DNA of 64,000 nt from Janibacter alkaliphilus (GTDB lineage: Bacteria > Actinomycetota > Actinomycetes > Actinomycetales > Dermatophilaceae): positions 124,001-188,000 of the forward strand of contig NZ_JACBZX010000001.1 in assembly GCF_013408565.1 (NCBI RefSeq), given 5' to 3'. The position numbers and the translations under genes are program-made. The first letter of the stretch is position 1; each line of letters starts with the position of its first letter. Shown piece by piece: positions 6,833 to 31,993 of the stretch. The notes beneath the pieces are model-generated. The model was not told the DNA's origin. It was given only the letters and a program-made list of their open reading frames with translations, and searched no databases.

Positions 6833-6879
6833 GGTCGAGGTGATACCCACCCCCTTCGACGGCGTGGATCACCTCGACC
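6833..6879. repeat. 47-bp palindromic element, copy 1 (subtype A)
   Basis: Arms GGTCGAGGTGAT (6833-6844) and ATCACCTCGACC (6868-6879) are perfect inverted repeats around a 23-nt loop. Copy 2 at 7889-7935 differs by one base. The TGA stop of the adjacent minus-strand gene lies at 6869-6871, inside the right arm. The site is between convergent genes and may also act as a terminator. Confidence 0.95.
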
Positions 6880-7783
6880 GCCGCGGTCTCGCGAGCATGC
6901 TGCGGATCTGCGCGGCGAACCGACCTTCGTACAGCCGCAGCCCCAGCAGGTCCACCCGCAGCAACGGCTCGCCCCCGATGACCAGGTCGTTGGTGCGCAG
7001 GTGGTCCAGGGCCACGTGCGCGCCCGCGCGGTGACCGCTGCCGTCGACCTCGATGCCGAAGCCCGCCTCCTCCCAGAAGGCGTCGAGGTAGCAGCGACCT
7101 CCCGGCGTCTCGCGCACCACCTGGCGGGACGGGGGCGGCAGCGCGTGCCGCCGGCACATCGCCCCCAGGTCGAGCTCGCCGATCGACTCGACCCCGCCGT
7201 GCACCGCCTCCCCGATCTCCCGCAGGTGACGCCGGCGCGTCCGACCCGGAGGCTGCCGGGTCAGGTCTCGCAGCGCGGCGGCATCGACGAGGCGCTGCTG
7301 CACGGGCATGACCAGCAGCAACGCAGCCTGGCGGTCGCTGACCGCCCAGTGCCCCGCCCGAACGCTCGCCCACAGCGGTGCTGTCACCGGCACCGCCCGG
7401 GCGAGCACCTCTCCCGCCGCGCGGCGCGCCACCTTGTGCAGCACGACGTCGCCGGGGGCGCTCACCCGTGCCGTGTGCGGCACCGAGACGTGCACCCGCT
7501 CGTCCTGGTACCCGGTCAGCCCGTGCCAGGCCAGCGCCGACACCCCGTCCAGCGCGGCCACCCGTTCCCCCACCTCCCACACCGCGCGCACGGCACGTCC
7601 TCGGGCGCTCAGCGGGCCGTTGTGCAGGGCCACCGCCTGCTGCCCCTGCACGACCCAGCGACCGGCCCGGACCTCCCGACGCACCTGCTTGTGGGTCCAG
7701 CCGTGCTCGCGCAGCTGCCGGCGACCGAGCACCAGCCCGCTGGCGGAGGCGAGGTCCCGGAGCGTCTCGACCGAGGTAGCCAT
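6869..7783 (-). CDS. AbiEi-like N-terminal / DUF559-like nuclease-fold protein
   Basis: A 304-residue protein of a type very common in actinobacteria. The N-terminal 60 residues look like the AbiEi antitoxin winged-helix segment (RQLREHGWTHKQVRREVRAGRW). The middle third has ALDGVSALAWHGL and a VHVSVP strand. The C-terminal 80 residues resemble DUF559/Vsr-type PD-(D/E)XK folds: Asp in YLDAFW, then Glu-Val-Asp-Gly in FGIEVDGSGHR, a conserved His, and a final helix with RVDLLGLRLYEGRF. The active-site Lys of classical members is not evident. No toxin gene is adjacent. Its last codons and stop come from the flanking 47-bp element, and a near-identical element lies 105 bp upstream of its start. 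Function is not established; antitoxin, nuclease or repeat-maintenance roles are possible. Confidence 0.75.
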   Translation of the reverse strand: MATSVETLRDLASASGLVLGRRQLREHGWTHKQVRREVRAGRWVVQGQQAVALHNGPLSARGRAVRAVWEVGERVAALDGVSALAWHGLTGYQDERVHVSVPHTARVSAPGDVVLHKVARRAAGEVLARAVPVTAPLWASVRAGHWAVSDRQAALLLVMPVQQRLVDAAALRDLTRQPPGRTRRRHLREIGEAVHGGVESIGELDLGAMCRRHALPPPSRQVVRETPGGRCYLDAFWEEAGFGIEVDGSGHRAGAHVALDHLRTNDLVIGGEPLLRVDLLGLRLYEGRFAAQIRSMLARPRRSR

Positions 7784-7888
7784 GCCTGAGGGTCACCCCC
7801 GGCAGATCGCCCTGGCCCCCCACGGTCGCGCATGGTGGACGGGACCTCGACCAGCCGACCCCCTGTGCATGACGCGCGTCCACCCGTG

Positions 7889-7935
7889 GGTCGAGGTGAT
7901 ACCCACCCCCTTCGACGGCGTGTATCACCTCGACC
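7889..7935. repeat. 47-bp palindromic element, copy 2 (subtype A)
   Basis: Same arms as copy 1 (7889-7900 and 7924-7935) and the same 23-nt loop except for one base, in direct orientation. Here the pairing extends by one more A-T pair. It lies between divergent genes, so it cannot simply be a terminator. Confidence 0.95.
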
Positions 7936-7955
7936 ACCGCATCGCGCGCGCCCGC

Positions 7956-7961
7956 TACGGT
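7956..7961 (+). promoter_or_regulatory. Leaderless -10 element of the MOSC gene
   Basis: TACGGT followed by 6 nt and ATG 7968. It starts 20 bp past palindromic element copy 2, so the element sits where the -35 region would be. Confidence 0.5.
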
Positions 7962-7967
7962 GGCGCC

Positions 7968-8630
7968 ATGGCCAGCGTGCTCTCCACCAACGTCGGACGA
8001 CCGATGCAGCAGGCGGTGCCGAAGGGGCGCCCCACCGGCATCGGCAAGCAGCCCGTGGAGCAGATCACCGTCGCCGACCCCGGCCCCAAGCGGGAGGGAC
8101 CGGCGGGCGAAGGGGTCAGCGGCGTGGCCGGCGACTTCATCGGCGAGGGCCGTCACCACGGCGGCAGCGACCAGGCGGTCTACGCCGTGGCCCGCGCGGA
8201 GCTGGACCACTGGGCGGACGAGCTCGGTCGCGCGATGCCGGACGGGTTCTTCGGCGAGAACCTCACCATCACCGGCCTGGACGTCGATGCCGCCGAGATC
8301 GGCGACGTCTGGCGGATCGGCTCGGCCGTGCTGCAGGTGAGCGCGCCGCGGATCCCGTGCGCCACCTTCGCCGCCCGGATGCAGGAGAAGGGGTGGGTCC
8401 GCCGGTTCGCCGAGCGGGGCCGCGTCGGCGCCTACCTGCGGGTGCTGCAGCCGGGCACGATCCAGCCCGGTGACCCGGTGCTCGTCGAGCCGGCCGGCTC
8501 CGGGGTGGACGTCCCGACGAGCCTGCGGGCCTTCATGGGCGACACCGAGGCCGCACAGACGGCTCTGGACGCCGGGGTCTTCGCGGGGTCCGACCGGGAC
8601 GATCTGGAGCAGGTGCTCGCCCGCGGCTGA
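7968..8630 (+). CDS. MOSC domain protein (YiiM-like)
   Basis: A 220-residue MOSC-fold protein of the YiiM type, a family tied to molybdenum-cofactor sulfur chemistry and to reduction of N-hydroxylated compounds. Visible family features are GDFIGEGRHHGGSDQAVYAVA (about 54-74), FFGENLTITG, and the conserved Cys in PRIPCATFAARM expected to bind the cofactor. The ATG is supported by a TACGGT -10 at 6 nt. It is a stand-alone gene, followed after 75 bp by a DUF885 gene with its own promoter. The redox partner cannot be deduced here. Confidence 0.85.
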   Translation: MASVLSTNVGRPMQQAVPKGRPTGIGKQPVEQITVADPGPKREGPAGEGVSGVAGDFIGEGRHHGGSDQAVYAVARAELDHWADELGRAMPDGFFGENLTITGLDVDAAEIGDVWRIGSAVLQVSAPRIPCATFAARMQEKGWVRRFAERGRVGAYLRVLQPGTIQPGDPVLVEPAGSGVDVPTSLRAFMGDTEAAQTALDAGVFAGSDRDDLEQVLARG

Positions 8631-8692
8631 GCGCTGCAGGATGCTGGTCTGAGCGGCCGGCGCCTGCACGGGTGGTGCACCGCCGGGGCCGG

Positions 8693-8698
8693 TAGCGT
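8693..8698 (+). promoter_or_regulatory. Leaderless -10 element of the DUF885 gene
   Basis: TAGCGT followed by 7 nt and ATG 8706. Confidence 0.5.
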
Positions 8699-8705
8699 CG
8701 GGCAG

Positions 8706-10391
8706 ATGAACGCGCCGAGCGACGGGCCACGCCAGCAGACCGAGATCGACCGCATCGCCGAGGCGCACCTCGACGCCGAGGTGGCGCTCAGCCCGATCGA
8801 GGCCACCTACCTCGGCCTCCCGGGCGGTGAGGACCGGCTCGACGACCTCTCCCCCGACGGGCTCGCCGAGCACTCCGCGCTGCGCCGCCGCACGCTGGCC
8901 GCCCTCGACCGCGCGGCCCCGCAGGACGAGATCGACCGGGTGACCCTCGAGGCGATGCGCGAGCGGCTCGGGCTCGCCGAGGAGATGCATGCCGCCGGGG
9001 AGGACCTGGCGGATCTCAACGTCATCGCCTCCCCCGCCCAGGGCATCCGGGACGTCTTCGACGTCATGCCCACCTCGTCCGACGACGACTGGCGCACCAT
9101 CGCCCGACGGCTCGGCCAGGTCCCCGCCGCGCTGGAGGGCTGGCTGGCCTCGCTGCACGCCGGTCTGGACACGGGCCGGGCGCCGGCCCGCCGTCAGGTG
9201 GACGCGGTCGCCCAGCAGGCGCGCGACCTCACCGCCGCCGACGGCTACTACGCAACCCTGCTGCGCGGTGCCAGCGCCGACGGCCGGGCGCTCGACCCAG
9301 CGGTGGCCGACGCGCTCCGCCACGGCGTCGAGGCGGCTGCGGCCGCCTACGCCGCCCTCCCGGACCGGCTGCGCCGGGTGCGGGCGGCGGCGCCCGAGCG
9401 GGACGCGGTCGGTCGCGAGCGCTACCAGCTGCACTCGCGGCAGTTCCTCGGTGCGCAGATCGACCTCGAGGAGACCTACGCCTGGGGCCAGGAGGAGCTG
9501 GCCCGGATCGACGGGCTGATGCGCGAGACCGCCGAGCGCATCCGTCCCGGGGCGAGCGTGAAGGAGGCGGTGGCGCTGCTCGACGCCGACCCCCGCTACC
9601 AGCTGCACGGCACCGAGGCGCTGCGCGCGTGGATGCAGCAGCGGGCCGACGAGGTCGTCGACCGGCTGGACGGGGTGCACCTCGACGTCCCCGACCCGGT
9701 GCGCACCATCGAGTGCATGATCGCCCCCACCCAGACCGGAGGCATCTACTACACCGGTCCCAGCGACGACTTCTCCCGGCCGGGGCGGATGTGGTGGTCG
9801 GTGCCGAAGGGGGTCACCACCTTCGGGACCTGGCGCGAGCTGACCACGGTCTACCACGAAGGGGTGCCCGGCCATCACCTGCAGATCGGGCAGGCGGTGC
9901 ACCGGCGCGACCTGCTCAACCGGTGGCGCCGGCTGGCCAGCATGACCTCCGGCCACGCCGAGGGGTGGGCCCTCTACGCGGAGTGGCTGATGGCCGACCT
10001 CGGCTTCATGGACGACCCCGGCGACTACCTCGGCCTGCTCGACGGGCAGTCGCTGCGCGCGGTGCGGGTGGTCATCGACATCGGCGTGCACTGCGGCTTG
10101 GACGCGCCGGCCGAGGTCGGGGGCGGCGCGTGGACCTACGAGAAGGCGTGGCAGATGCTGGACAGCTATGCCAACCAGGGCACCGAGCAGCTGCGCTTCG
10201 AGCTGGACCGCTACCTCGGGTGGCCGGGCCAGGCGCCCAGCTACAAGATCGGCGAGCGGATCTGGCTCGACCTGCGCGACGAGGCCCGGCGGGCAGAGGG
10301 AGACGCCTTCTCGCTCAAGGACTTCCACGCGCGTGCCCTGGACGTCGGCAGCGTCGGCCTGGACACCCTGCGGTCCGCGCTCTCGCCCTGA
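8706..10391 (+). CDS. DUF885 family putative zinc metallopeptidase
   Basis: A 561-residue cytoplasmic protein of the DUF885 family. The probable zinc site is visible: HEGVPGHH near residue 385 (HEXXXGHH pattern), followed about 35 residues later by GHAEGWALYAEWL supplying the acidic ligand. Family members are regarded as metallopeptidases (carboxypeptidase-like); the substrate is unknown. No signal peptide or membrane segment is present. Length is normal for the family. The gene ends 5 bp before palindromic element copy 3. Confidence 0.85.
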   Translation: MNAPSDGPRQQTEIDRIAEAHLDAEVALSPIEATYLGLPGGEDRLDDLSPDGLAEHSALRRRTLAALDRAAPQDEIDRVTLEAMRERLGLAEEMHAAGEDLADLNVIASPAQGIRDVFDVMPTSSDDDWRTIARRLGQVPAALEGWLASLHAGLDTGRAPARRQVDAVAQQARDLTAADGYYATLLRGASADGRALDPAVADALRHGVEAAAAAYAALPDRLRRVRAAAPERDAVGRERYQLHSRQFLGAQIDLEETYAWGQEELARIDGLMRETAERIRPGASVKEAVALLDADPRYQLHGTEALRAWMQQRADEVVDRLDGVHLDVPDPVRTIECMIAPTQTGGIYYTGPSDDFSRPGRMWWSVPKGVTTFGTWRELTTVYHEGVPGHHLQIGQAVHRRDLLNRWRRLASMTSGHAEGWALYAEWLMADLGFMDDPGDYLGLLDGQSLRAVRVVIDIGVHCGLDAPAEVGGGAWTYEKAWQMLDSYANQGTEQLRFELDRYLGWPGQAPSYKIGERIWLDLRDEARRAEGDAFSLKDFHARALDVGSVGLDTLRSALSP

Positions 10392-10396
10392 TCCTG

Positions 10397-10443
10397 GGTC
10401 GAGGTGATCCCCGACGACGCCCGCGGCGCGGATCACCTCGACC
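10397..10443. repeat. 47-bp palindromic element, copy 3 (subtype B)
   Basis: Arms 10397-10408 and 10432-10443 are identical to copies 1 and 2; the 23-nt loop differs and ends in GGCGCGG. It lies between two genes on the same strand, downstream of the DUF885 gene and upstream of a lipoprotein gene. Confidence 0.95.
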
Positions 10444-10488
10444 GGCAGGGGGTTCGCTCGGACTACTCCGCAGATCGTGGCAGCGCCC

Positions 10489-10494
10489 TAGCCT
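10489..10494 (+). promoter_or_regulatory. Leaderless -10 element of the lipoprotein gene
   Basis: TAGCCT followed by 6 nt and ATG 10501. Confidence 0.55.
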
Positions 10495-10500
10495 GACCTC

Positions 10501-11331
10501 ATGCGCGTCGTCGCGGCGGGGGCCGCAACCTTGACCGTCCTGCTCACCGGGTGCTCGCTCGGCACGTCCGAGCAGAGCTCCGACTCCTCGAGCACGGTCA
10601 CCGTGACCGAGTCCTCGACCCCGGCCAGCGACTCGTCCTCCGCCGCGCCGGCGACGAGCTCGGCATCGACCAGCACCGCGACGACGAGCACGAGCAGCGC
10701 CCCGGCACCGGACGCCGGTGGCGAGCTGCCGGGCGACCCCGGCGAGTACGCCGACGCCTTCGTCCGCGCCTGGGGGGTCGGCGACCGGGTCGAGGCCGAG
10801 CGCTACGCCACCGGCGACGCCGTCGACTCCCTCTTCGCCTACGACGGCCGGGGCGGCAGCACGTGGACCCGCGACGCGGTCACCAGCCAGGACGGCCGCA
10901 CCCAGGTCGGCTACACCGACGGCACCGGGCAGTCCCTCTACGTGCTGCTGGACACCGTCACGGTCGGCGCGCCGGACGCGGTGGTCAGCGCGAACGTCGA
11001 GTGGGAGGGCACCAGCGAGGACGCCGCGGCGGAGGAGGACCCCGGCGCCGCGACCGGTCTGCCCAGCGACGTCGGCGACTACGGCGACGCGCTGGTGCGC
11101 GCCTGGGGCGTCGGCGACCGGGACGCCGCCGACGCCTACGCCACGGCGTCGGTGCTGTCCACGCTCTTCGACGGGTACGGCACCGGTGGCAGCGACTGGA
11201 GCCGCACCGGGAGCACCGCCGACTCGATCACCTACACCGACTCCTTCGGAGACACGGTCACCATCTACGTCGACGCGGCGACCGTCTCGGCCGGGCGGGG
11301 CGACGCGGCCTACCTGGCCGTCTTCTCCTGA
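10501..11331 (+). CDS. Putative lipoprotein with a tandemly duplicated domain
   Basis: A 276-residue exported protein of unknown function. The N-terminus is a signal peptide ending in the lipobox LLTGC (Cys at about 18), then a Ser/Thr-rich linker of about 55 residues. The rest is two similar domains of about 90 residues: the first begins LPGDPGEYADAFVRAWGVGD and the second LPSDVGDYGDALVRAWGVGD. Both continue with a conserved YAT, a Phe-containing turn and a Trp-X-Arg, and each ends in Val-rich strands. The duplication is clear by eye. The gene is bracketed by palindromic elements 3 and 4. No enzymatic motif is seen; a surface-exposed binding role is a guess. Confidence 0.75.
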   Translation: MRVVAAGAATLTVLLTGCSLGTSEQSSDSSSTVTVTESSTPASDSSSAAPATSSASTSTATTSTSSAPAPDAGGELPGDPGEYADAFVRAWGVGDRVEAERYATGDAVDSLFAYDGRGGSTWTRDAVTSQDGRTQVGYTDGTGQSLYVLLDTVTVGAPDAVVSANVEWEGTSEDAAAEEDPGAATGLPSDVGDYGDALVRAWGVGDRDAADAYATASVLSTLFDGYGTGGSDWSRTGSTADSITYTDSFGDTVTIYVDAATVSAGRGDAAYLAVFS

Positions 11332-11365
11332 CCGCAGCACACCACCGCGCCCGCCGCGAGCGCCG

Positions 11366-11412
11366 GGTCGAGGTGATCCACGCCGACGTGCGCGGCGCGG
11401 ATCACCTCGACC
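11366..11412. repeat. 47-bp palindromic element, copy 4 (subtype B)
   Basis: Arms 11366-11377 and 11401-11412; the 23-nt loop is related to that of copy 3 (shared GCGGCGCGG end). Located between the convergent lipoprotein and lipase genes. Confidence 0.95.
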
Positions 11413-11430
11413 CGTGGGGCGTCGGCCCGG

Positions 11431-12699
11431 TCAGCGCACCGCCCAGCAGTTGCTGCGCAGCGCCTTGCCCTCGAAGCGGTCCTCGAGGAAGGGGATCACC
11501 TGCGAGCTGTTCGGCAGGATCCCGCCGAGGTGCAGCGGGGCCCAGTTCGGGCTCCAGCGCAGGTTCGTGCCGCTGGCGCACCAGTCGCGGGCCAGCTGCT
11601 TGCCGACGCCGTAGGGGATGGTGTCGTCCAGCCGGCTGTGGGTCAGCAGCACCGGCACGTCAGGGGTGCGCTCGCCGATCGTGTTCTCGGCGATCACGCT
11701 CTTGAAGGGCTCCTCGTCGAGGTAGTCGGTGATCGGCCGACCGTCGGCGGAGTAGTCGGCGGACTCGGTGAAGGCGTACTCGCCGAAGTTCGTCACGCAG
11801 GCGCTCTCCACCTTCTCGGCGAGCGCCTTGCCGTCCTCGTTGAGGTAGGCGGGCAGGTCGACGTGGTGCCCCTGGCTCAGCCCGACGAGGGCGAAGTAGA
11901 GGAAGGCCGCCCAGAAGGAGCCGTCGAGGTTCTCGGCGACCTTCGCCAGGTCGGCGGGCACCGCGCCGGCGACGACTCCCTTCACCGGCAGCTCCGGGGC
12001 GTACTCGGCCCGCAGCTCGGCGGCGGAGGCGGCCGCGCCGCCGCCCTGGGAGTAGCCGACGATGCCGATCGGGCTGGTGGCCAGGCCGCTGCGGGGCAGC
12101 GCCCGGGCGGCACGGGCCATGTCGAGCACCGCGTGCCCCTGCACCTCCCGGTTCATGTAGGTGTGCGCGCCGGGCGTGCCCAGCCCCTGGTAGTCGGTCA
12201 TCGCCACCGAGTAGCCCTCGGCCAGCAGCGAGCTGAAGAAGAGCGACTCGTACTCGAAGCTGTCCGAGAGGAAGCGGGTCGGCGCGCAGCCGTCACCCAT
12301 CCCCTGGGTGCCGGGGGCGTAGCTGACCACCGGGCGCTCGCCCTGACCGGTCCAGGCCTTCTTCGGGGTGATGACGATGCCGGTGACGGCGATCGGGGTG
12401 CCCTCCCGGTCCAGCGAGGAGTACATCACCCGGCGGGCGTCGAAGTGGGCTGCCTTGAGCCCGAGCGGGTCGAGGACCGAGGTCGACGGCTCCTCCTTGA
12501 GGACGGTGCCCGGCGTGGCCGGGATGTCCTCCGGCGGCTCGTAGAAGTCGCGCCGCTCCGGCTCGGCGACGCCGGTGAGGGTCTCCGCGCCAGCGGTGCC
12601 GGGCACGTCGTTCTCGTCGGCGCCGGCGGCACCGACGGCCGGGACGGACAGGGCGAGCGTCAGCGTGGCGCCGGTGAGGGTTCGTGCGGTCCGGGACAT
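11431..12699 (-). CDS. Secreted lipase (secretory lipase / LIP family)
   Basis: A 422-residue exported alpha/beta hydrolase. The signal peptide spans about residues 1-27 with an AGA cleavage region. The nucleophile is in GYSQGG (about residue 217), with the acid Asp in HSRLDDTIPYG and the His in APLHLGG, matching secretory lipases that act on triacylglycerols. Length is typical. A ribosome binding site (GGAGG) precedes the ATG, so this gene is leadered, unlike many neighbours. It is divergent from the antiporter, and an imperfect inverted repeat lies between them at 12753-12774. Confidence 0.88.
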   Translation of the reverse strand: MSRTARTLTGATLTLALSVPAVGAAGADENDVPGTAGAETLTGVAEPERRDFYEPPEDIPATPGTVLKEEPSTSVLDPLGLKAAHFDARRVMYSSLDREGTPIAVTGIVITPKKAWTGQGERPVVSYAPGTQGMGDGCAPTRFLSDSFEYESLFFSSLLAEGYSVAMTDYQGLGTPGAHTYMNREVQGHAVLDMARAARALPRSGLATSPIGIVGYSQGGGAAASAAELRAEYAPELPVKGVVAGAVPADLAKVAENLDGSFWAAFLYFALVGLSQGHHVDLPAYLNEDGKALAEKVESACVTNFGEYAFTESADYSADGRPITDYLDEEPFKSVIAENTIGERTPDVPVLLTHSRLDDTIPYGVGKQLARDWCASGTNLRWSPNWAPLHLGGILPNSSQVIPFLEDRFEGKALRSNCWAVR

Positions 12700-12752
12700 G
12701 TGTCCTCCAGGTGGCGGGCGTCCGGGCCGCGAAGGGGGCGACGACGACCCGC

Positions 12753-12774
12753 GTACCTACGGAACAGTAAGTTA
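12753..12774. promoter_or_regulatory. Possible TetR-type operator between lipase and antiporter
   Basis: An AT-richer segment with half-sites TACCTAC and GTAAGTTA around GGAACA, an imperfect inverted repeat in otherwise GC-rich sequence. It resembles operators of TetR regulators of lipid genes but is too degenerate to assign. Confidence 0.3.
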
Positions 12775-12817
12775 CCGAGGGTCAGCGGGTTCGGCAGCGG
12801 CTGTGGCGTGCCGCACA

Positions 12818-14728
12818 ATGTCCTGCGTGGACCCCCTCTCGATCGCTCTGCTCCTCGTCGGCGTCACGGTCACCGTCATCGTCGTGGCCCGCGCCTGCGA
12901 GCCGATCGGCCTGCCCAGCCCGCTGGTCCTGCTCGGCGTCGGCGCGGTCGGCTCGCTGCTGCCCGTCGTCCCGCAGATCTCGATGTCCCCCGAGCTCGTG
13001 CTCTACGGGCTGCTGCCGCCGCTGCTCTACGCGGCGGCGATCAGCACCTCCCTGGTGGACATCCGCACCAACGCCGTCCCGATCCTCGGGCTGTCGGTGG
13101 GGCTGGTCCTCTTCACCGCGCTCGGGGTGGCCCTGGTCGCTCAGGCGCTCATCCCGGACCTGCCCTTCGCGGTCGCCTTCGCCCTCGGTGCCATCGTCGC
13201 TCCCCCGGACGCGGTCGCCGCGACCGCGGTCGCCCGGCAGATCGGTCTCCCCCGTCGGATCACCACCCTGCTCGAGGGCGAGTCGCTGCTCAACGACGCC
13301 ACCGCCCTGGTGTCGCTGCGCACCGCGCTGGCCGCCGCCGGGCTGGCGGTGCACGGCGCGGGCAGCGAGGAGGTGAGCGTCGCCGGGGTCGCCGGCGACT
13401 TCGTGTGGGCGGTCGTCGGCGGCGTCGGGATCGGGGTGCTCACCTTCGTCGTCGTCGGGATGCTGCGCCGCTACCTCACCGAGAGCGCCGCGGACACCGC
13501 GCTCTCCTTCGCCAGCCCCTTCATCGCCTTCGTCCCGGCGGAGTCGCTGGAGGCCTCCGGGGTGCTGGCCGTGGTCACCGCCGGTCTGCTGCTGGCCCAC
13601 AAGGCCCCGCGGCTGCAGAGCTCGTCCTCCCGGCTGGCCGAGCGGATCAACTGGACCACGGTCACCTTCGTCCTGGAGAACGCGGTCTTCCTGCTCATCG
13701 GCCTGCAGCTGCAGGAGATCCTGCAGGCGCTGGACGACGCCCAGGACCTCACCTTCGGCCGGACCATGCTCATCAGCCTCGTCGTGCTGGCCACCGTGCT
13801 CCTGCTGCGGCCGCTGTGGATGGTGCCCTTCGCCTGGGTCTACACCCGGGTGGACGGGGTGCCCGGGCACTCCCGGGTGCGGGAGAGCCTCGTCGGGTCG
13901 TGGGCCGGGATGCGCGGCGTGGTCACCCTGGCCGCCGCCTTCACCCTGCCCGAGGGCACCCCGCACCAGCCGGTGCTGGTGATGATCGCGCTCGTGGTCA
14001 CCGTCGGCACCCTGCTGCTGCAGGGGCTCAGCCTGCCCCGGGTGGCGGCCGCGCTGGGCGTCGAGGGCCCCGACCCGCGCCAGGACGCGCTCGTCGAGGC
14101 CAGCGTCGTCGGCGCGATCACCGGCGCCGGGCTGCGCGAGCTCGAGGCCGACCCGGACTCCGACCCGGACGTGCTCGCCGAGCTCAAGGAGCAGTCGACC
14201 ATCCGGGTCAACCGCACCTGGGAGCGGCTGGGCAGCCTCAGCGAGAGCGAGGGCGAGACCCCGGCCGAGGCGAGCGCCCGGATGCGCACCCAGATGATCG
14301 ACGCCGAGCGGGCCGAGCTGCTGCGCATCCGCAGCCAGGGCCAGGTGGACCAGGAGGTCCTCGCCGGGGTGCTGCGCCAGCTCGACGCCGAGGAGTCGGC
14401 GATCTCCTACGGCGCGGACAAGGCCGCCCGGATCCGCCGCTCGCCGCTGCTGCCGCCGCCGGAGGTGGCGCCCGGCTGCGAGCACCTGGCGGCGCAGCCA
14501 GCCAGCGTCACCCCGACCACCCCGGAGGGCTGCCAGGAGTGCGTGGCCGCCGGGCAGCGCTGGGTGCACCTGCGGGTGTGCACGCAGTGCGGGCACGTCG
14601 GCTGCTGCGACTCCTCGCCGGGCCGGCACGCCAGCACCCACCACCACGAGACCGGGCACCCGGTGATGGCCAGCCTGGAGCCGGGCGAGGCCTGGCGGTG
14701 GTGCTTCGTCGACGACGTGCTGGGCTGA
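12818..14728 (+). CDS. Na+/H+ antiporter (CPA1) with C-terminal UBP-type zinc finger
   Basis: A 636-residue cation/proton antiporter. About twelve hydrophobic segments fill residues 1-410; the ion-binding motif is in FALGAIVAPPDAVAATAV (Asp in APPDA) and GESLLNDATALV. A charged cytoplasmic tail of about 145 residues follows, then a Cys/His-rich domain from about residue 545 (CEHL, CQEC, CTQCGHVGCC, HASTHHHETGHPV, WCFVDD) matching the UBP zinc finger that binds ubiquitin C-termini in eukaryotes. Bacteria of this group have no ubiquitin, so the finger presumably binds another C-terminus or is structural. ATG 12818 was taken; GTG 12827 in the same frame is possible. Confidence 0.88.
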   Translation: MSCVDPLSIALLLVGVTVTVIVVARACEPIGLPSPLVLLGVGAVGSLLPVVPQISMSPELVLYGLLPPLLYAAAISTSLVDIRTNAVPILGLSVGLVLFTALGVALVAQALIPDLPFAVAFALGAIVAPPDAVAATAVARQIGLPRRITTLLEGESLLNDATALVSLRTALAAAGLAVHGAGSEEVSVAGVAGDFVWAVVGGVGIGVLTFVVVGMLRRYLTESAADTALSFASPFIAFVPAESLEASGVLAVVTAGLLLAHKAPRLQSSSSRLAERINWTTVTFVLENAVFLLIGLQLQEILQALDDAQDLTFGRTMLISLVVLATVLLLRPLWMVPFAWVYTRVDGVPGHSRVRESLVGSWAGMRGVVTLAAAFTLPEGTPHQPVLVMIALVVTVGTLLLQGLSLPRVAAALGVEGPDPRQDALVEASVVGAITGAGLRELEADPDSDPDVLAELKEQSTIRVNRTWERLGSLSESEGETPAEASARMRTQMIDAERAELLRIRSQGQVDQEVLAGVLRQLDAEESAISYGADKAARIRRSPLLPPPEVAPGCEHLAAQPASVTPTTPEGCQECVAAGQRWVHLRVCTQCGHVGCCDSSPGRHASTHHHETGHPVMASLEPGEAWRWCFVDDVLG

Positions 14729-14750
14729 GCACGAACCCGGCGCGCCCGGC

Positions 14751-14788
14751 GTCGGCGACCGCTGGGTCGGCGACCGCTGGGTCGGCGG
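14751..14788 (+). repeat. 15-bp tandem repeat, 2.5 copies
   Basis: GTCGGCGACCGCTGG occurs twice head to tail (14751-14765, 14766-14780) followed by a partial third unit, in the gap between the convergent antiporter and ABC transporter genes. No clear function. Confidence 0.85.
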
Positions 14789-14813
14789 CCCGGGGTCGGC
14801 CGGTGGCCCCGGG

Positions 14814-15653
14814 TCAGCCGGTGGTCGCGGCCTCGGGCTCGGCGCCTGTGGTGACCGGCCCGTGGTGCCGCCCGATCGGCAGCACCAGCGGCTTGCCGGA
14901 GACCGGGTCGGGGATCACCTGGCTGCGCATGCCGAAGACCTCGGCGACCGTCTCCGCGGTGAGCACGCGGTCGGGGGCGCCGCTGGCGACCATCCGACCG
15001 CCGCACATGGCCACGAGATGGTCGGCGTAGCGCGCGGCGAGGTTGAGGTCGTGCAGCACGATGACGATCGTCGTGCCTCGCTCACGGTTCAGGTCGGTGA
15101 GCAGGTCGAGCACCTCGACCTGGTGGCTGATGTCGAGGAAGGTCGTCGGCTCGTCCAGCAGCAGGATGTCGGTCTGCTGGGCCAGCGCCATGGCGATCCA
15201 CACCCGCTGTCGCTGACCGCCGGAGAGCTCGTCCACCGCGCGGTCCGCCAGCTCGGCGGTGGCGGTGAGGTCCAGCGCCTCGGCGACCGCCTCGTCGTCC
15301 GCCGACGACCAGCGGCTGAGCATCCGCTGGTGCGGGCTGCGGCCGCGGGCGACGAGGTCACCGACGACGATTCCCTCCGGGGCGATCGGCGACTGCGGGA
15401 GCAGTCCCAGGGTGCGAGCGAGCTCCTTGGTCGGCAGCCGGTGCAGGTCCTGGCCGTCGAGCACCACGGTGCCCTCGGCGGGGGTCAGCAGCCGCGACAG
15501 CGAGCGCAGCAGGGTGGACTTGCCGCAGGCGTTCGCCCCGACGATGACGGTGATCTCCCCGGGGGGCACGAGCAGGTCCAGGCCCTCGACGACGGTGCGC
15601 TCGCCGTAGCCGAGGGTGACCTGCCGGGCGTGCAGGGTGTGGTCGTCGGTCAC
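14814..15653 (-). CDS. Iron-siderophore ABC transporter ATP-binding protein
   Basis: A 279-residue FecE/FepC-type ATPase that powers ferric-siderophore import. Walker A GANACGKST, Q-loop LLPQSP, signature LSGGQRQRVW, Walker B ILLLDEPTTFLD and the switch HDLN are intact. It is the last gene of a four-gene operon (binding protein, two permeases, ATPase) joined by GTGA overlaps throughout. Start GTG 15653 overlaps the upstream permease stop. Confidence 0.93.
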   Translation of the reverse strand: MTDDHTLHARQVTLGYGERTVVEGLDLLVPPGEITVIVGANACGKSTLLRSLSRLLTPAEGTVVLDGQDLHRLPTKELARTLGLLPQSPIAPEGIVVGDLVARGRSPHQRMLSRWSSADDEAVAEALDLTATAELADRAVDELSGGQRQRVWIAMALAQQTDILLLDEPTTFLDISHQVEVLDLLTDLNRERGTTIVIVLHDLNLAARYADHLVAMCGGRMVASGAPDRVLTAETVAEVFGMRSQVIPDPVSGKPLVLPIGRHHGPVTTGAEPEAATTG

Positions 15654-18818: not shown

Positions 18819-18850
18819 GGAGCTCCTAGGAAGGTGGTCGGGCGGACCCG

Positions 18851-18873: not shown

Positions 18874-18931
18874 AACACGATGGGCGGCGTGCGCGCGAAA
18901 CGCGACGCGGTGCGGCTGGTTCGATGGGGAC

Positions 18932-21179: not shown

Positions 21180-21256
21180 CGCGGGGATCCTCCGATGCTG
21201 CGCTGCTTCGGTCTCTGCTCAGCATGCCAGCCGGACCACCCGCTGGGAAGGGGTTT

Positions 21257-21274
21257 TGTTAATCGCGAATCACA
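21257..21274. promoter_or_regulatory. Candidate fatty-acid regulator operator, site 1
   Basis: TGTTAAT, CGCG, AATCACA form a 7-4-7 imperfect inverted repeat in the divergent region between fadD and the double TetR gene. The site shares the layout, the AAT half-site and a CACATG edge with 27333-27350. Confidence 0.5.
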
Positions 21275-21365
21275 TGGGTGCGTCTCACTGGTCGGCTGCC
21301 CGGACCACAGGCGGGCGTGGTTGACTGCCGGGCATGGGAACCCTGGGGGCCGGGCGGCGAGCCGG

Positions 21366-22556: not shown

Positions 22557-22572
22557 CCCCTCCCCCGACTGC

Positions 22573-22658
22573 GCAAATGCCCGGGCAGTTGCGGACCTTC
22601 GCGTGAATTGCCCGGGCAGTTGCGGACCTTCGCGTGAATTGCCCGGGCAGTTGCGGAC
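22573..22658. repeat. Orphan three-unit array of the TGCCCGGGCA palindrome
   Basis: Cores at 22578-22587, 22609-22618 and 22640-22649, exactly 31 bp apart, flanked by AATT on the left and GTTGCGGACCT on the right. Orientation matches the array downstream of the nuclease-like gene at 30902. It fills the gap between convergent genes. Confidence 0.95.
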
Positions 22659-22665
22659 CTGGGGG

Positions 22666-24837: not shown

Positions 24838-24923
24838 GCTCGCGTCCTCTCGGGTGGTCTCGCTGCGGCGCTCGGCCGCGTCGTCGCTGCTGCGTTGGGT
24901 GGACCAGCGGCCCTGCGCGTCGC

Positions 24924-26122
24924 TCAGACGCGCTCGATGACGGTGGCGACGCCCATGCCGGCGCCGACGCACAGGGTGGCCAGGCCGGTGCTGAGGTCGC
25001 GCCGCTCCATCTCGTCGAGCAGGGTGCCCAGGATCATCGCGCCGGTCGCGCCGAGCGGGTGGCCCAGGGCGATCGCGCCGCCGTTGACGTTGACCTTGTC
25101 GTGCGGGATCTTCAGGTCCTTCATCCACTTCAGCACGACCGCGGCGAAGGCCTCGTTGAGCTCGAAGAGGTCGATGTCCGAGACGCTCATCCCGGCCCGG
25201 GCGAGCACCTTCTCGGTGGCCGGGGTGGGGCCAGTGAGCATGATCGTGGGCTCCGAGCCGACGACGGCGCTGGCGACGACCCGGGCGCGCGGGGCGATCC
25301 CGGCGCGCCGTCCGGCGTCCTGGCTGCCGACGAGGGTGAGGGCGGCGCCGTCGACGATCCCGGAGGAGTTCGCCGCGGTGTGCACGTGCTCGATCCGCTC
25401 GACGTGCGGGTAGCGCTGCCGGGCGACCGCGTCGAAGCCGCCCTGGTCGCCGATGCCGGCGAAGGCGGGACGCAGCCCGGCCATCGACTCAGTGGTGGCG
25501 TCCGGGCGGGGGTGCTCGTCCCGCTCCAGCACCGGGACCCCGTTGAGGTCGCGGACCGGGACCAGGCTGCGGTCGAAGCGTCCGGCCGCGACCGCCTCGG
25601 CCGCCCGGCGCTGCGAGGTGAGCGCGTACTCGTCGACGTCTTCGCGGGTGAACCCCTCGAGGGTGGCGATCAGGTCGGCACCGATGCCCTGCGGGACGAA
25701 GTAGTGGTCGTAGGCGGTGGTCGGGTCCTGGTGGTAGGCGCCGCCGTCGCTGCCCATCGGCACCCGGGACATCGACTCGACGCCGCCGCCGAGGACGAAG
25801 GAGTCGCCGGCCAGCACCTTGGCCGCGGCGGTGTTGACCGCCTCCAGCCCGGAGGCGCAGAAGCGGTTCAGCTGCACCCCGGCGACGCTCTCCGGCAGGC
25901 CGCCGACCATGGCCGCGGTGCGGGCGATGTCGCCGCCCTGCTCACCGACCGGCGAGACCACCCCGAGCACGATGTCGTCGATCTCGCCGAGGTCCAGGCC
26001 CGGGTTGCGCGGGGTCAGCTCGTGCAGCAGCCCGGCGACCAGGTCGACCGGCTTGGTGCCGTGCAGGGCGCCGCCGCGGTTCTTGCCGCGCGGGGTGCGC
26101 AGGGCGTCGTAGATGTAAGCGG

Positions 26123-26126
<4 letters not shown>
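24924..26126 (-). CDS. fadA: Acetyl-CoA acyltransferase (thiolase)
   Basis: A 400-residue thiolase for the final thiolytic step of beta-oxidation. Nucleophile Cys is in [12 protein letters not shown] (about residue 90), the catalytic His in [14 protein letters not shown], and the second Cys in [16 protein letters not shown] is also conserved. The GTG start overlaps the stop of the upstream acyl-CoA dehydrogenase (GTGA), so the two are co-translated. Confidence 0.93.
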
Positions 26127-27271
<1,145 letters not shown>

Positions 27272-27332
27272 CACGATCCTTGCTCGTCGGGGCCACGCTG
27301 CCGCCCCCATCATGCCCACGAACCGACCGCTT

Positions 27333-27350
27333 TGTAAATGGGGATTCACA
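27333..27350. promoter_or_regulatory. Candidate fatty-acid regulator operator, site 2
   Basis: TGTAAAT, GGGG, ATTCACA: 7-4-7 inverted repeat with six of seven pairs matching. Located 62 bp upstream of the beta-oxidation operon start and related to site 1 next to the double TetR gene. Confidence 0.55.
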
Positions 27351-27366
27351 TGATGCGGGTCACCGC

Positions 27367-28959
27367 TCAGACCGGCGGGATGCTGCGCCGCTTCGTGGCG
27401 AAGTGCCGCTCGCGGCCCCGGGCGTGCGCGATCCGCCGGACGAGGTCGGCCCGCAGGTCCTCGGCCTCGACGACGTCGTCGATGACCAGGTCGGCGGCCA
27501 GCCGCTCGAGATCGACGTCCTGCTCGTAGTCCTCGCGCCGGGCCGCGACGAAGGCGTCCCGCGCCTCGGCCCCCTCGCTCGCCTCGATCGTCGCGATGGT
27601 GTTGGCGTAGACCGCGTTGACCGCGGCCTCGGGCCCCATCACCGCGATCCGGGCGGTCGGCAGGGCGATCGTCGCGTCCGGGGCGAAGCCGGGACCGCCC
27701 ATCGCGTAGAGCCCGGCGCCGTAGGCCTTGCGGACGACGACGCAGACCTGCGGCACGGTGGCCGCCGAGACGGCGTGCACCATCTTCGCGCCGTGCCGGA
27801 TGATCCCGCCCCGCTCGACCTCGCTGCCGATCATGAAGCCGGGCACGTCGGCCAGGTAGATCAGCGGGATCGAGTAGGCGTCGCACATCCAGATGAACCG
27901 GGCGGCCTTGTCGGCGCTGTCGGCGAAGAGGACCCCGCCCTTGGCCATCGAGTTGTTGGCGACGATGCCGACGGTCTGCCCCTCCAGGCGACCCAGCCCG
28001 ACGACGAGCTCGGGGGCGAAGAGCGCCTTGACCTCGAAGAAGGAGTCGTCGTCGAGCAGGCCGTCGATGACCTCGTGGATGTCGAAGGGCTGGCTCTCCC
28101 GCTCCGGGACCACCGCCCGGGTCAGCGGCTGCGTCGGCGGCTCGACCTGGTAGCTCGGGACCTCGCCGCGCCAGGACAGCGGCAGGTAGCTCAGCCACAG
28201 CCGGGCCAGCTCGATCGCCTCGGCGTCGTCGCCGACGAGCACGTCGCCGCAGCCGGAGACGGTGCAGTGCATCCGGGCACCACCCATCTCCTCCAGGCTG
28301 ACCCGCTCGCCGACGACCATCTCGGCCATCCGCGGGCTGCCCAGGTACATCGAGGCGTTGCCCTCGACCATGATGACCAGGTCGGTGAAGCTGGGGATGT
28401 AGGCGCCGCCGGCGGCGCTCGGCCCGAAGAGGCAGCAGACCTGCGGGACCTTGCCGGAGAGGGCGACCTGGTTGTGGAAGATGTGCCCGGCGCCGCGCCG
28501 CCCGGGAAACATCTCCACCTGGTCGGTGATCCGGGCACCCGCGGAGTCGACGAACCAGAAGACCGGGAGCTCCTCGCGCAGCGCGGTCTCGGTGGCCCGC
28601 ACGATCTTCTCGACGGTGCGTGCGCCCCACGAGCCGGCCTTGACGGTCGGGTCGTTGGCGATGACGATGACCGGCCGCTCGTCGACCAGCCCGCGGCCGG
28701 TGACCACCCCGTCGGCGGGCAGCCCGTCGGCGAGCGCGTTGGCGTACCGGCCGTCCTCGACGAAGCTGCCCTCGTCGAGCAGCAGCGCGATCCGGTCCCG
28801 GACGTAGAGCTTGCCCTGGGCCTCGAGCTTGGCGGCCGCCTTCTCGGTGGGCGCGGCGGAGGCGGCGTGCGCCTGCTGCAGCCGGGCCCGGACGTCGGCG
28901 ACCCGCGGGTCGCCCGGGTGCTCGGCGGGGTGCTGGCTGGGGTGTCCTGCCGGGGACAT
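27367..28959 (-). CDS. Acyl-CoA carboxylase carboxyltransferase subunit (MccB/AccD1-like)
   Basis: A 530-residue biotin-dependent carboxyltransferase. Motifs FVDSAGARITDQVEMFPG, GPSAAGGAYIPSFTD, NNSMAKGGVLFADSADKAARF and VRKAYGAGLYAMGG place it with methylcrotonyl-CoA carboxylase beta and AccD1 proteins. It is coupled by ATGA overlap to an acyl-CoA dehydrogenase, the pairing seen in leucine and branched acyl-CoA catabolism. No dedicated biotin carboxylase is adjacent, so it may borrow AccA (44558) or a distant subunit. The substrate is therefore uncertain. Confidence 0.88.
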   Translation of the reverse strand: MSPAGHPSQHPAEHPGDPRVADVRARLQQAHAASAAPTEKAAAKLEAQGKLYVRDRIALLLDEGSFVEDGRYANALADGLPADGVVTGRGLVDERPVIVIANDPTVKAGSWGARTVEKIVRATETALREELPVFWFVDSAGARITDQVEMFPGRRGAGHIFHNQVALSGKVPQVCCLFGPSAAGGAYIPSFTDLVIMVEGNASMYLGSPRMAEMVVGERVSLEEMGGARMHCTVSGCGDVLVGDDAEAIELARLWLSYLPLSWRGEVPSYQVEPPTQPLTRAVVPERESQPFDIHEVIDGLLDDDSFFEVKALFAPELVVGLGRLEGQTVGIVANNSMAKGGVLFADSADKAARFIWMCDAYSIPLIYLADVPGFMIGSEVERGGIIRHGAKMVHAVSAATVPQVCVVVRKAYGAGLYAMGGPGFAPDATIALPTARIAVMGPEAAVNAVYANTIATIEASEGAEARDAFVAARREDYEQDVDLERLAADLVIDDVVEAEDLRADLVRRIAHARGRERHFATKRRSIPPV

Positions 28960-30155
28960 CAGGAGACCAGCCCGAGGTGGCGGGCGATGACCATGCGCTG
29001 CACCTCGGAGGTGCCCTCGCCGATCTCGAGGATCTTGGCGTCCCGGTAGAAGCGGGCCACCGGGTACTCCTCCATGAAGCCGTTGCCGCCGAAGATCTGG
29101 GTGGCGATCCGGGTGGCGGTCACCGCCGCCTCGCTGGTGTAGAGCTTCGCGATGCTCGCCGCCTTCGCCACCTCGGCGGCGCTGCGCCGACCGCGGTCGG
29201 CCTCGTCCTTGAGCCAGGCCGCCTTGTAGGTCAGCGCCCGGGAGGCCTCGACCATGACGGCCAGGTCGGCGACCTGGAAGGAGACGCCCTGGTTGGCGCC
29301 GATGGGGCGGCCGAAGGCGGTGCGGGTGCCGGCGTACTCGGTGGCCAGCTCGAGCATCCGCTGGGTCAGGCCCAGGGCCAGCGCGGAGATCGCGATGCGA
29401 CCGTCGTCGAGGGTCTTGAGGAACTGCCGGAAGCCCTCCCCCTCGGCGCCGAGCAGGTTCTCGGCGGGGACCCGGCAGCCGTCGAAGGTCAGCCCGTGGG
29501 TGTCGCTGATGTGCCAGCCGAGCTTGTCGTAGGCCGGCTCCACGGTGAGGCCCGGGGTGCCGGAGGGGACGATGATCGCCGAGATCTGCGGGCGGCCGGC
29601 GTCGCTGGTGCCGGTGCGGGCGGTGACGGTGACGCACGAGGTGATGTCGGTGCCGGAGTTGGTGATGAAGGCCTTGGCGCCGTCGATCACCCAGTCGGCG
29701 CCGTCACGCACCGCCTTCGTCCGGGTGCCACCGGCGTCGGAGCCGGCGTCCGGCTCGGTGAGGCCGAAGCCGGCCAGCGCCCGACCGGCGACGAGGTCCG
29801 GGAGCCAGGTCGCCTTCTGCTCGTCGCTGCCGAAGGTGAGGATCGGGTTGATCCCCAGGCCGACCCCGGCGGAGAGCGTGATGCCGATCGACTGGTCGAC
29901 CCGGCCGAGCTCCTCGATGGCCAGGCAGAGCGCGGTGAAGTCGCTCTGCACCACCCCGTCGACGGTCTCGGCGCTGCCGCCGTGCTCCTCGGGGACGACC
30001 AGGCCGAAGAGGCCGAGGTCGCCCATCCGGGCGACCACCTCCAGCGGCAGGTGGTGCTCCCGGTCCCAGCCGGCCACGTGCGGCTCGATCTCGCGGGTGG
30101 CGAACTCGCGCACGCTCGCGCGGAAGTCCTCGTGGTCCTGGCTCAGCTCGAACAT
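28959..30155 (-). CDS. Acyl-CoA dehydrogenase (short/medium-chain type)
   Basis: A 398-residue flavoprotein. FAD loop GFGLTEPDAGSDAGG, the [10 protein letters not shown] segment, and a C-terminal IGEGTSEVQRMVIARHLG that places the catalytic Glu at the common MCAD/SCAD position. The alternative position used by isovaleryl-CoA dehydrogenase holds Gly (LDDGRIAI), so an isovaleryl-CoA role is less likely despite the MerR and carboxyltransferase neighbours. ATG 30155 has GAGGACGACG upstream. It is divergent from merR across a perfect 16-bp operator. Confidence 0.9.
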   Translation of the reverse strand: MFELSQDHEDFRASVREFATREIEPHVAGWDREHHLPLEVVARMGDLGLFGLVVPEEHGGSAETVDGVVQSDFTALCLAIEELGRVDQSIGITLSAGVGLGINPILTFGSDEQKATWLPDLVAGRALAGFGLTEPDAGSDAGGTRTKAVRDGADWVIDGAKAFITNSGTDITSCVTVTARTGTSDAGRPQISAIIVPSGTPGLTVEPAYDKLGWHISDTHGLTFDGCRVPAENLLGAEGEGFRQFLKTLDDGRIAISALALGLTQRMLELATEYAGTRTAFGRPIGANQGVSFQVADLAVMVEASRALTYKAAWLKDEADRGRRSAAEVAKAASIAKLYTSEAAVTATRIATQIFGGNGFMEEYPVARFYRDAKILEIGEGTSEVQRMVIARHLGLVS

Positions 30156-30228
30156 CGTCGTCCTCGCGTCGGTGGAGGCTCCTGGGGGTCGCCCCGGAGC
30201 ACGGTCTGGCACGTCGGTCTGGTGCTTG

Positions 30229-30244
30229 ACGTTGACGTCAACGT
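30229..30244. promoter_or_regulatory. MerR-type operator, perfect 16-bp palindrome
   Basis: ACGTTGACGTCAACGT is fully palindromic and lies between the divergent acyl-CoA dehydrogenase and merR genes, 19 bp from the merR start. It resembles LiuR-type sites described upstream of branched-chain amino-acid degradation genes. Confidence 0.75.
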
Positions 30245-30262
30245 AAAGCATGCTCACGGGTC

Positions 30263-30655
30263 ATGACAAGCACGCGCGAGGAGCAGCGCACGTGGAGCAT
30301 CGCGGAGGTGGCCGAGGAGCTCGGGATCACCCACCGGACGGTGCGCCACTACGAGCAGCTGGGCCTGGTCTCCCCGGCGCGGGAGGGCACCCGGCGGGTC
30401 TACCGGCGGCGCGACCGGACCCGCCTCGGCCTCGTGGTGCGCGGGCGGCGGCTGGGCTTCCCGCTGGAGGAGATCGCCAAGATCATCGACCTCTACGACG
30501 CCCCGCGCGGGCGCACCAGCCAGCTGGAGTACGTGCTCTCCCAGATCGACGAGCGCCGCGCCGACCTCGAGCAGCGCCGTCGGGACGTCGAGGCGGCCCT
30601 CACCGAGCTGGACACCTTCGAGCAGCGCTGCCGCGACGAGCTCGCCTCCCGCTGA
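30263..30655 (+). CDS. MerR-family transcriptional regulator
   Basis: A 130-residue regulator. N-terminal winged helix WSIAEVAEELGITHRTVRHYEQLGLVSPAREGTRRVY, then a long coiled-coil dimerisation helix (about 80-125). No Cys cluster for metals is present, so an acyl-CoA or redox-independent ligand is more likely. By context it controls the divergent acyl-CoA dehydrogenase/carboxyltransferase operon, in the manner of LiuR-type MerR proteins. Confidence 0.9.
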   Translation: MTSTREEQRTWSIAEVAEELGITHRTVRHYEQLGLVSPAREGTRRVYRRRDRTRLGLVVRGRRLGFPLEEIAKIIDLYDAPRGRTSQLEYVLSQIDERRADLEQRRRDVEAALTELDTFEQRCRDELASR

Positions 30656-30671
30656 CCCTCCCCCTCCCCCT

Positions 30672-30824
30672 CCGCAACTGCCCGGGCAAATCACACGGCC
30701 TCCCTCGCAACTGCCCGGGCAAATCACCACCCTCCCTCGCAACTGCCCGGGCAAATCACCACCCTCCCCCGCAACTGCCCGGGCAAATCACACGGCCCCT
30801 CCGCAACTGCCCGGGCAATTCACC
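30672..30824. repeat. Left five-unit palindrome array of the second nuclease-like gene
   Basis: Cores TGCCCGGGCA at 30679, 30712, 30744, 30776 and 30808 (start positions; spacing 33, 32, 32, 32). Each unit reads CGCAAC, core, AATCAC (last unit ATTCAC), followed by a C/T-rich filler. The array fills the space between merR and the nuclease-like gene. Confidence 0.97.
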
Positions 30825-30852
30825 ACGGTGGAGCCCGCGCGGAGTCGCGCCC

Positions 30853-30861
30853 TGTGGATAA
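30853..30861 (-). other. Consensus DnaA box
   Basis: TGTGGATAA, the complement of TTATCCACA, between the left palindrome array and the nuclease-like gene. A single box does not indicate an origin. Confidence 0.45.
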
Positions 30862-30901
30862 CCCCACGGGGCTCGGCCCCGAAGTCGGCAGCCTGGCCTT
30901 C

Positions 30902-31831
30902 GTGACCACCACGCTGCACGTCGACCTCACCAACGTCGGGGACCTGCCCGTCTTCAGCCGGGAGCAGGCCAGGGGGTGGGGCATCTCCGACCGCGACCTC
31001 GCCGCGCTGTGCCGAAGGGGCAGCTTCCGGCGTCTCGCGCGCGGTTGGTACTCGTCGCGCATGGACGCCACGCCTGAAGAGCTCCATGTCCTCCGGACCG
31101 TCGCCAACATCCGCCTGCATGCTGGCCGATCCGTCGCGGTCCGCCACTCGGCAGTCCTGCTGCACGGGCTCCCGCTGGCCAAGGCTGATCTCGACATCGT
31201 CGAGCTCGCCCGCGCCGGGCAGGGCCATGGCCGGATACGTGCTGGCGTCCGCGAGAGCCTGCTGGAGGGGCGCCCCACGACGCAGGTCGAGCTGCCGGAC
31301 CTCGGCGCCGGCGCATCTCTCGTCACGGTCCCGCACGCGATCGTGGGCACCGCACAGACCAACAATCCCTCGGCCGCCCTCGTCGCCGGCGACCACGCCC
31401 TTCGCCTCGGCCTGTGCACGCCCGCCGAGATCCACGAGGCGCTCGCCGATGCCGCAGGGCAGACGGGGGTCGGCCAGGCGCGCCTGGCGCTGGCGCATCT
31501 CGACGGCCGTCACGAGTCACCCGGCGAGACGCTGACCGCAGTGATCCTGCGGACGCTCGGGTGGGACGTCGACCCGCAGGTCGAGGTGGTGGCCGCTGGC
31601 CGGCTCTACCGTCTGGACTTCGCTCTGCGTGCCTACCGGGTCGCCATCGAGTTCGACGGCCAGGTGAAGTACAACGATCCAGCGGCGCACCTCGCCCAGG
31701 AGCGCCGCGAGGCGGACCTCAGATCCGTCGGTTGGGCCTTCGCGCGGTTGGGCTGGGACGACCTCGACGACCCGGCGATCCTCGGCGGGCGCATCCGTTC
31801 GGCGATCGCCGAGCTGGACCCGGTCGCCTGA
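30902..31831 (+). CDS. AbiEi-like N-terminal / DUF559-like nuclease-fold protein, array-bracketed
   Basis: A 309-residue protein with the same layout as the one at 6869-7783. N-terminal AbiEi-type winged helix (PVFSREQARGWGISDRDLAALCRRGSFRRLARGWY), a middle domain with RHSAVLLHGLPL, and a C-terminal DUF559/PD-(D/E)XK-like domain: Asp in RLDFAL, Glu-X-Asp-Gly in AIEFDGQVKY with a following Lys, then RREADLRSVGWAFARLGWDDL. The putative active-site set (D, ExD, K) is more complete here. GTG 30902 places the start just before the first domain; GTG 30854 would add 16 residues overlapping a DnaA box. Five-unit palindrome arrays flank it on both sides in opposite orientation. No cognate toxin is adjacent. 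Confidence 0.75.
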   Translation: MTTTLHVDLTNVGDLPVFSREQARGWGISDRDLAALCRRGSFRRLARGWYSSRMDATPEELHVLRTVANIRLHAGRSVAVRHSAVLLHGLPLAKADLDIVELARAGQGHGRIRAGVRESLLEGRPTTQVELPDLGAGASLVTVPHAIVGTAQTNNPSAALVAGDHALRLGLCTPAEIHEALADAAGQTGVGQARLALAHLDGRHESPGETLTAVILRTLGWDVDPQVEVVAAGRLYRLDFALRAYRVAIEFDGQVKYNDPAAHLAQERREADLRSVGWAFARLGWDDLDDPAILGGRIRSAIAELDPVA

Positions 31832-31845
31832 CGCCAGCGGCCGAT

Positions 31846-31993
31846 GTGATTTGCCCGGGCAGCTGCCCCCTTCTGGTGATTTGCCCGGGCAGTTGCGCAC
31901 CCCTCGGTGATTTGCCCGGGCAGTTGCGGAGGCGGCGTGTGAATTGCCCGGGCAGTTGCGGAGGGGCCGTGTGAATTGCCCGGGCAGCTGCGG
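31846..31993. repeat. Right five-unit palindrome array of the second nuclease-like gene
   Basis: Cores at 31852, 31882, 31913, 31945 and 31977 (spacing 30, 31, 32, 32). Units read GTGATT or GTGAAT, core, GTTGCG: the reverse complement of the left array. It begins 14 bp after the gene's stop codon and ends 14 bp before a convergent methyltransferase gene. Confidence 0.97.

Follow-up and report, generated by a model that had tools for sequence, protein, structure and literature searches.

Why should two related nuclease genes on one bacterial chromosome each lie between short palindromes of their own, when the two sets of palindromes are unrelated in sequence? This question is raised by a stretch of 64,000 nucleotides (nt) of Janibacter alkaliphilus (G000:C1:124001-188000 of a 3.32-Mb genome, hereafter the window), in which the two genes, called here P1 and P2, encode an AbiEi-type DNA-binding region joined to a nuclease. 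An earlier note on this DNA had likened the arrangement to that of the RAYT transposases and their repetitive extragenic palindromic (REP) sequences. The best overall explanation of our results, which we regard as moderately probable, is that these are repeat-bounded AbiEi-nuclease units, whose protein recognises and spreads a private palindrome. We consider P1 and P2 to be members of a large actinobacterial family of such single-gene units, each composed of a nuclease gene and its private palindrome. The finding of nuclease genes with private repeats that change in step with them suggests a so far undescribed repeat-spreading partnership.

Two nuclease genes between private palindromes

The domain identity of both proteins was decided by fold search, in which an AbiEi-type region was found joined to a Vsr/EDxHD-type nuclease in P1 and P2 alike, the best structural matches being AbiEi and Vsr/homing (EDxHD) nucleases. 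Pfam-type family libraries would have been misleading as the sole guide: the nuclease region of P1 had no Pfam match above the cut-off, and the DUF559, MTES_1575 and AbiEi_4 matches of P2 all fell below it. Additionally, PADLOC AbiEi models matched both proteins (best 5.4e-11 and 5.7e-08). The active-site residues E, D, H and D are conserved in 97/97 relatives of P1, and on our own reading of the alignment they would correspond to the EDxHD motif. The description in the earlier note of a restriction-type fold without an HUH motif was borne out. Neither protein matches Y1_Tnp (PF01797) in Pfam, and no Y1 transposase was detected in 16 genus genomes at E<=0.001, in a search whose control was detected in 5/14 known genomes; RAYT was ruled out as the repeat mover on this absence. 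P1 is present as a single copy in its own genome and P2 in four copies, together with additional, more distant DUF559 matches, and the nearest named relatives of P2 are from Janibacter.

The flanking palindromes are unrelated between the two genes, as had been noted before. On both sides of P1 there is a 47-nt inverted repeat of the form GGTCGAGGTGAT-n23-ATCACCTCGACC, whereas P2 stands between arrays of 21-nt units (Table 1). The TGA stop codon of P1 (6869-6871) is itself supplied by the first copy of the flanking inverted repeat. The orphan copies reported earlier for both families (P1 type at 10397 and 11366, P2 type at 22572) were also recovered, and they extend genome-wide. The P1 repeat has 17 copies in its own genome when the arms are set at 11 nt and 18 at 10 nt, and the P2 repeat matches 167 times in forward and 152 times in reverse orientation when <=3 mismatches are allowed; the reversed-pattern control gave 0 for each. 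In 20 stretches selected among the places listed for the P2-type units, these form groups of 2 to 17; with the three groups of the window added, the step from one unit to the next is 30-33 nt in 102/107 cases. Placement outside genes was checked and found for the window's two orphans of the P1 type. A third AbiEi-nuclease enzyme of this genome, a P2 paralogue at C1:2805004, has its own adjoining repeat, of which the window holds an orphan copy. Known RNAs and terminators were both rejected as identities of the repeats: there was no Rfam match in 6000-33000, and a terminator consensus scan of 6500-12000 found no site, with a narrow loop limit of 8 at which many such hairpins would be missed.

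Table 1. Genes and repeats in the window (positions counted from its first nucleotide)
Feature	Position	Strand	Description
P1 gene	6869..7783	minus	304 aa; AbiEi-like region (1-195) and Vsr/EDxHD nuclease (200-302)
P2 gene	30854..31831	plus	325 aa; AbiEi-like region and MTES_1575/DUF559-type nuclease
P1-type inverted repeat, copy 1	6833..6879		downstream of P1, overlaps its 3' end
P1-type inverted repeat, copy 2	7889..7935		upstream of P1
Orphan P1-type inverted repeat	10397..10443		just 3' of the DUF885 gene stop
Orphan P1-type inverted repeat	11366..11412		between convergent genes
P2-type array upstream of P2	30674..30823	plus	5 units of 21 nt, 32-33 nt spacing
P2-type array downstream of P2	31846..31991	minus	5 units, 30-32 nt spacing; orientation opposite to that of the upstream array
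Orphan P2-type array	22572..22654	minus	3 units, 31-nt spacing
25-nt palindrome CCTTTATCGGGTAACCCGATAAAGG	44423..44447		orphan copy of the repeat adjoining the P2 paralogue at C1:2805004

Flanking repeats and protein lineages

The excess of palindromes near such genes that had been proposed was found in the flanks of the relatives, against a comparison that only approximates random intergenic DNA. The longest word common to both 300-nt flanks reached at least 14 nt in 63/95 P1 relatives and 43/92 P2 relatives, and in 30/1,094 control positions. These controls were overlapping steps through the window and through six stretches of five other genus genomes; they include coding DNA and were drawn from one genus, not from the genus of every relative. 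It is also important to consider that many relatives belong to one bacterial family. A hairpin with at least 13 paired positions was present in either flank of 81/95 P1 relatives, 64/90 P2 relatives and 200/549 controls, and in both flanks of 48/95, 25/90 and 22/549, respectively. The shared-flank word was chosen as the main statistic because the excess of single hairpins is weak.

Furthermore, repeat families co-vary with protein clades, as the earlier note had anticipated. When P1 relatives are arranged in tree order, repeat families tend to be shared by neighbouring proteins and to differ between distant ones. Across all P1 pairs, protein identity and hairpin similarity were correlated at 0.400, a value reached in 0/2,000 permutations. 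For pairs from different genera, which cover the 82/97 P1 loci with a detected hairpin, the correlation was 0.403, and the best of 2,000 permutations gave 0.151, none being as high. Two P1 genes sharing one genome usually have different repeats (16/19 pairs). The signal became weaker under a stricter signature in which pairs with homologous outer flanks were dropped, and it was still present for both P1 and P2. One clade of P2 relatives, in which variants of the palindrome CGGGTnACCCG occur, covers several genera, and the form found in the own genome is the one with the orphan at 44423.

The co-variation can be followed down to a single residue. At position 104, which belongs to the second portion of the AbiEi-like region, Asn was found in 7/7 loci with a TCGATGT arm and in 0/27 loci with a TCGAGGT arm, a count that covers the 34 loci with a T-GA-GT arm and describes the best column of an all-column scan, made without a separate test set. 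The seven Asn-104 loci fall into two clades, each adjoining loci of the TCGAGGT type. For arm base 2 (C or G/T), no clear matching residue was found in the column scan.

Occupied and empty sites across the genus

The junction between accE and the MOSC gene, where P1 resides, was read in 14 genus genomes, the own genome included. P1 lies there between repeats in seven of them, three have a lone hairpin, one has a different inverted repeat, and in three nothing was evident. The gene is opposite to accE in four genomes and in the same direction in three, and the seven proteins represent at least three lineages of the protein tree. Both flanking repeats are clear in the own genome, G127, G124, G120 and G125, and they are imperfect in G101 and G121. 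Among the junctions with a lone hairpin (G123, G075 and G126), the hairpin of G123 resembles the P1-flanking repeats of G124. In G117 (L077), the spacer is filled by a different, long inverted repeat, possibly a miniature inverted-repeat transposable element (MITE).

The repeats themselves are also distributed by species. The P1 repeat, with its 18 copies in the own genome, was found in none of the 15 other genus genomes, and the TCGAAGAAG repeat occurs in 10/16. Its copy numbers are 10, 6, 4 and 1 in the genomes with the matching junction enzyme versus 13 copies in the 12 other genomes (p=0.012, considering only enzymes at the accE-MOSC junction and including one 41-nt match, in G101:C1, that is possibly coding). 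The orphan at 10397 was missing from 5/5 orthologous congener spacers read and that at 11366 from 4/4; at the latter site, three of the four spacers hold an unrelated terminator-like hairpin, judged by eye. In one orthologous spacer of four close congeners (L278-L281), a TTCGAAGAAG hairpin is found in G123 and G120, a TCAAAGACACC hairpin in G127 and a TGAAATACGACC hairpin in G124, which we read as an in-place change of hairpin family. At each of five other places compared, two to four species have kept the TCGAAGAAG hairpin, and at some of these places the inner arms are not identical; one panel of this spacer comparison is unreliable towards the ends of its alignment.

P2 was found near the acyl-CoA dehydrogenase gene (<=1,500 nt) in 1/15 genomes, the own one. 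In G123, G101 and G125, the distance by BLAST from the MerR block to the conserved block that comes next is 26-69 nt, and it is between these two blocks that the own genome carries P2, its arrays and a methyltransferase gene; the site in G075 appears alike by eye. In G126 (L089, G126:C144), three units of a different palindrome, with a CCTTAAGG core and a spacing of about 32 nt, follow MerR. The frame adjoining these units did not look AbiEi-like when judged by eye. In a relative from another genus, a P2 homologue of 50.8% identity adjoins the same acyl-CoA dehydrogenase gene and has a different palindrome. A search of 288,631 distinct bases of other genus genomes, made up of partial stretches, gave no copy of the P2 repeat (one set of the stretches overlaps, its 247,407 bases being 187,681 distinct).

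Proposed mechanism, alternatives and known systems

It is likely that the protein reads its own palindrome. In the mechanism that we propose, the AbiEi module would recognise the private palindromic repeat of its unit, two protein molecules probably occupying two half-sites, which for P1 are separated by about 33 nt, close to three turns of the helix. The EDxHD nuclease would then nick or cut this repeat, or a site related to it, and the repeat and, occasionally, the whole repeat-gene-repeat unit would be copied to new places by repair or recombination. Recombination between the two palindromic ends could delete the gene, leaving one hairpin, or could flip it. That the enzyme mobilises the repeat is what we infer from the patterns of presence and absence described above. 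The pairing within the hairpins differs between families. The inner arms co-vary at positions 10, 12 and 16-18 among the 26 distinct 42-nt copies taken from 34 TCGAAGAAG matches. Such compensatory pairing is lacking in the inner arms of 17 of the 18 P1-type copies of the own genome (one 41-nt copy was dropped), and hairpin formation as a universal rule was therefore rejected. A dimer on two half-sites fits both kinds of inner arm.

Several points weigh against repeat-bounded units that spread their palindrome, the unpaired inner arms just described among them. No transposition was observed, and neither a target-site duplication nor an exact insertion point could be read, because the flanks diverge too far. 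No 14-nt word is common to both flanks in 32/95 P1 and 49/92 P2 relatives. Half-sites of the T-GATGT form occur without Asn-104 in L034 (2/4), L029 (1/2) and L025 (1/4) in a looser half-site scan. The comparison of repeat copy number with enzyme presence, 4 versus 12 genomes, is only suggestive, and G123, without P1 at the accE-MOSC junction, has 4 copies. The gene at this junction could be ancestral and then lost, rather than gained. Finally, a nuclease with an intact active site and many target sites in its own genome must be under some restraint.

Much of the same evidence can be arranged differently. If the palindromes were operators, the AbiEi-type domain would act as a repressor of its own gene and, by way of the dispersed copies, of others, the nuclease having a separate role. 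P1 and P2 each have an upstream repeat, the P2 arrays with their 30-33-nt spacing resemble a phased binding array, and autoregulation by AbiEi and Rv2827c via 23-bp inverted repeats is an established function of the fold (PMC7319586). However, repeats are also present at the 3' end of the gene, one P1-type orphan of the window follows a stop codon and the other separates convergent genes, and single hairpins are found at places that lack the gene. Operators would also leave the species-specific multiplication unexplained, and we consider this alternative unlikely.

It appears quite improbable that the hairpins are terminators or bystander repeats at gene ends, where nuclease genes merely settle, given that the repeat co-varies with the protein between genera, to the level of one residue, and that the P1 repeat is restricted to one genus genome. 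The empty Rfam and terminator scans, the latter with its narrow loop limit, point the same way. This alternative would nevertheless accommodate the several hairpins that come after stop codons, the spacer with three hairpin families in four species, the terminator-like hairpins opposite 11366, and the pairing that TCGAAGAAG hairpins retain by compensatory changes, as expected of a transcript hairpin. More improbable still is a chromosomal defence or self/non-self nuclease, for which the palindromes would serve as marks of the host chromosome or hold the enzyme, and DNA without them would be attacked. The PADLOC matches and the active site kept in all P1 relatives are compatible with it, as is the lack of any P1 or P2 match in 72,556 plasmid records at E<=1e-10. 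Against it, no partner of a known system was found among the neighbours scanned, and gene absence with lone repeats is frequent within one genus.

Among known systems, RAYT-REP is described in PMC3116915 as a chromosomal enzyme with its own flanking palindromic repeat, lineage-specific and with dispersed repeats. The enzymes of the P1/P2 type are likewise flanked, lineage by lineage although not in every relative, by their own palindrome, and their repeats are also dispersed and genome-specific. They differ in that the enzyme is an AbiEi and EDxHD nuclease, not an HUH/Y1 protein. The REP-like relation put forward in the earlier note is supported, with the qualification that the P2 repeat forms phased arrays of short units instead of a single REP-like hairpin; movement of the repeats by the enzyme would be a further likeness. 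The nuclease fold and its conserved E, D, H and D residues are shared with the homing endonuclease I-Bth0305I, whose long target is bound by a dimer (PMC3943268). In contrast to a homing gene inserted within its recognition site, P1 and P2 do not split their presumed target, assuming that the repeat is the recognition site: a complete repeat lies on each side, a complete hairpin can stand alone without the gene, and many dispersed copies of the repeat exist. With the AbiE type IV toxin-antitoxin system they share the AbiEi fold (residues 1-195 of P1) and the inverted repeats beside the gene, but they have an extra nuclease domain, and no AbiEii nucleotidyltransferase toxin is present among the window neighbours scanned (ACC_epsilon, MOSC and DUF885 for P1; MerR, acyl-CoA dehydrogenase and TylF methyltransferase for P2). 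MITEs and insertion sequences with terminal inverted repeats also have bounded genes and gene-less copies elsewhere; here, however, each end is a complete palindrome, lone copies are single repeats, and in structure the proteins match AbiEi and Vsr/homing nucleases best, in searches not aimed at other transposases.

A defining feature of each of the nearest kinds was looked for and found to be absent, while the way of life of the system is RAYT-REP-like: it works like RAYT-REP and is not a RAYT, a homing endonuclease or an AbiE toxin-antitoxin as defined. No report linking DUF559 or AbiEi proteins to dispersed palindromes was found in the literature searched, which mostly excluded subscription papers and preprints. 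More tentatively, we suggest a convergent counterpart of RAYT-REPIN, in which an AbiEi-guided EDxHD nuclease would multiply its private palindrome and could convert resident hairpins of another family in place. Its specificity could be read from particular residues (104 in the case of arm base 5), and many such pairs would coexist across Actinomycetota, several per genome. If this is true, the lifestyle of an enzyme with dispersed palindromes, known from HUH transposases, would have arisen again from a homing/restriction-type nuclease. A function would be given to many actinobacterial genes annotated as 'very-short-patch-repair endonuclease', DUF559 or AbiEi-like, and many of the dispersed palindromes that belong to them would be explained. 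It would also provide a family of DNA readers with a specificity decodable from natural co-variation, starting with residue 104. Among phage records, P2 had no match and P1 had one relative (MT837139.1, an unannotated 'Bacteriophage sp.' from human faecal samples, 42.5% identity), which may be a bacterial contig rather than a phage.

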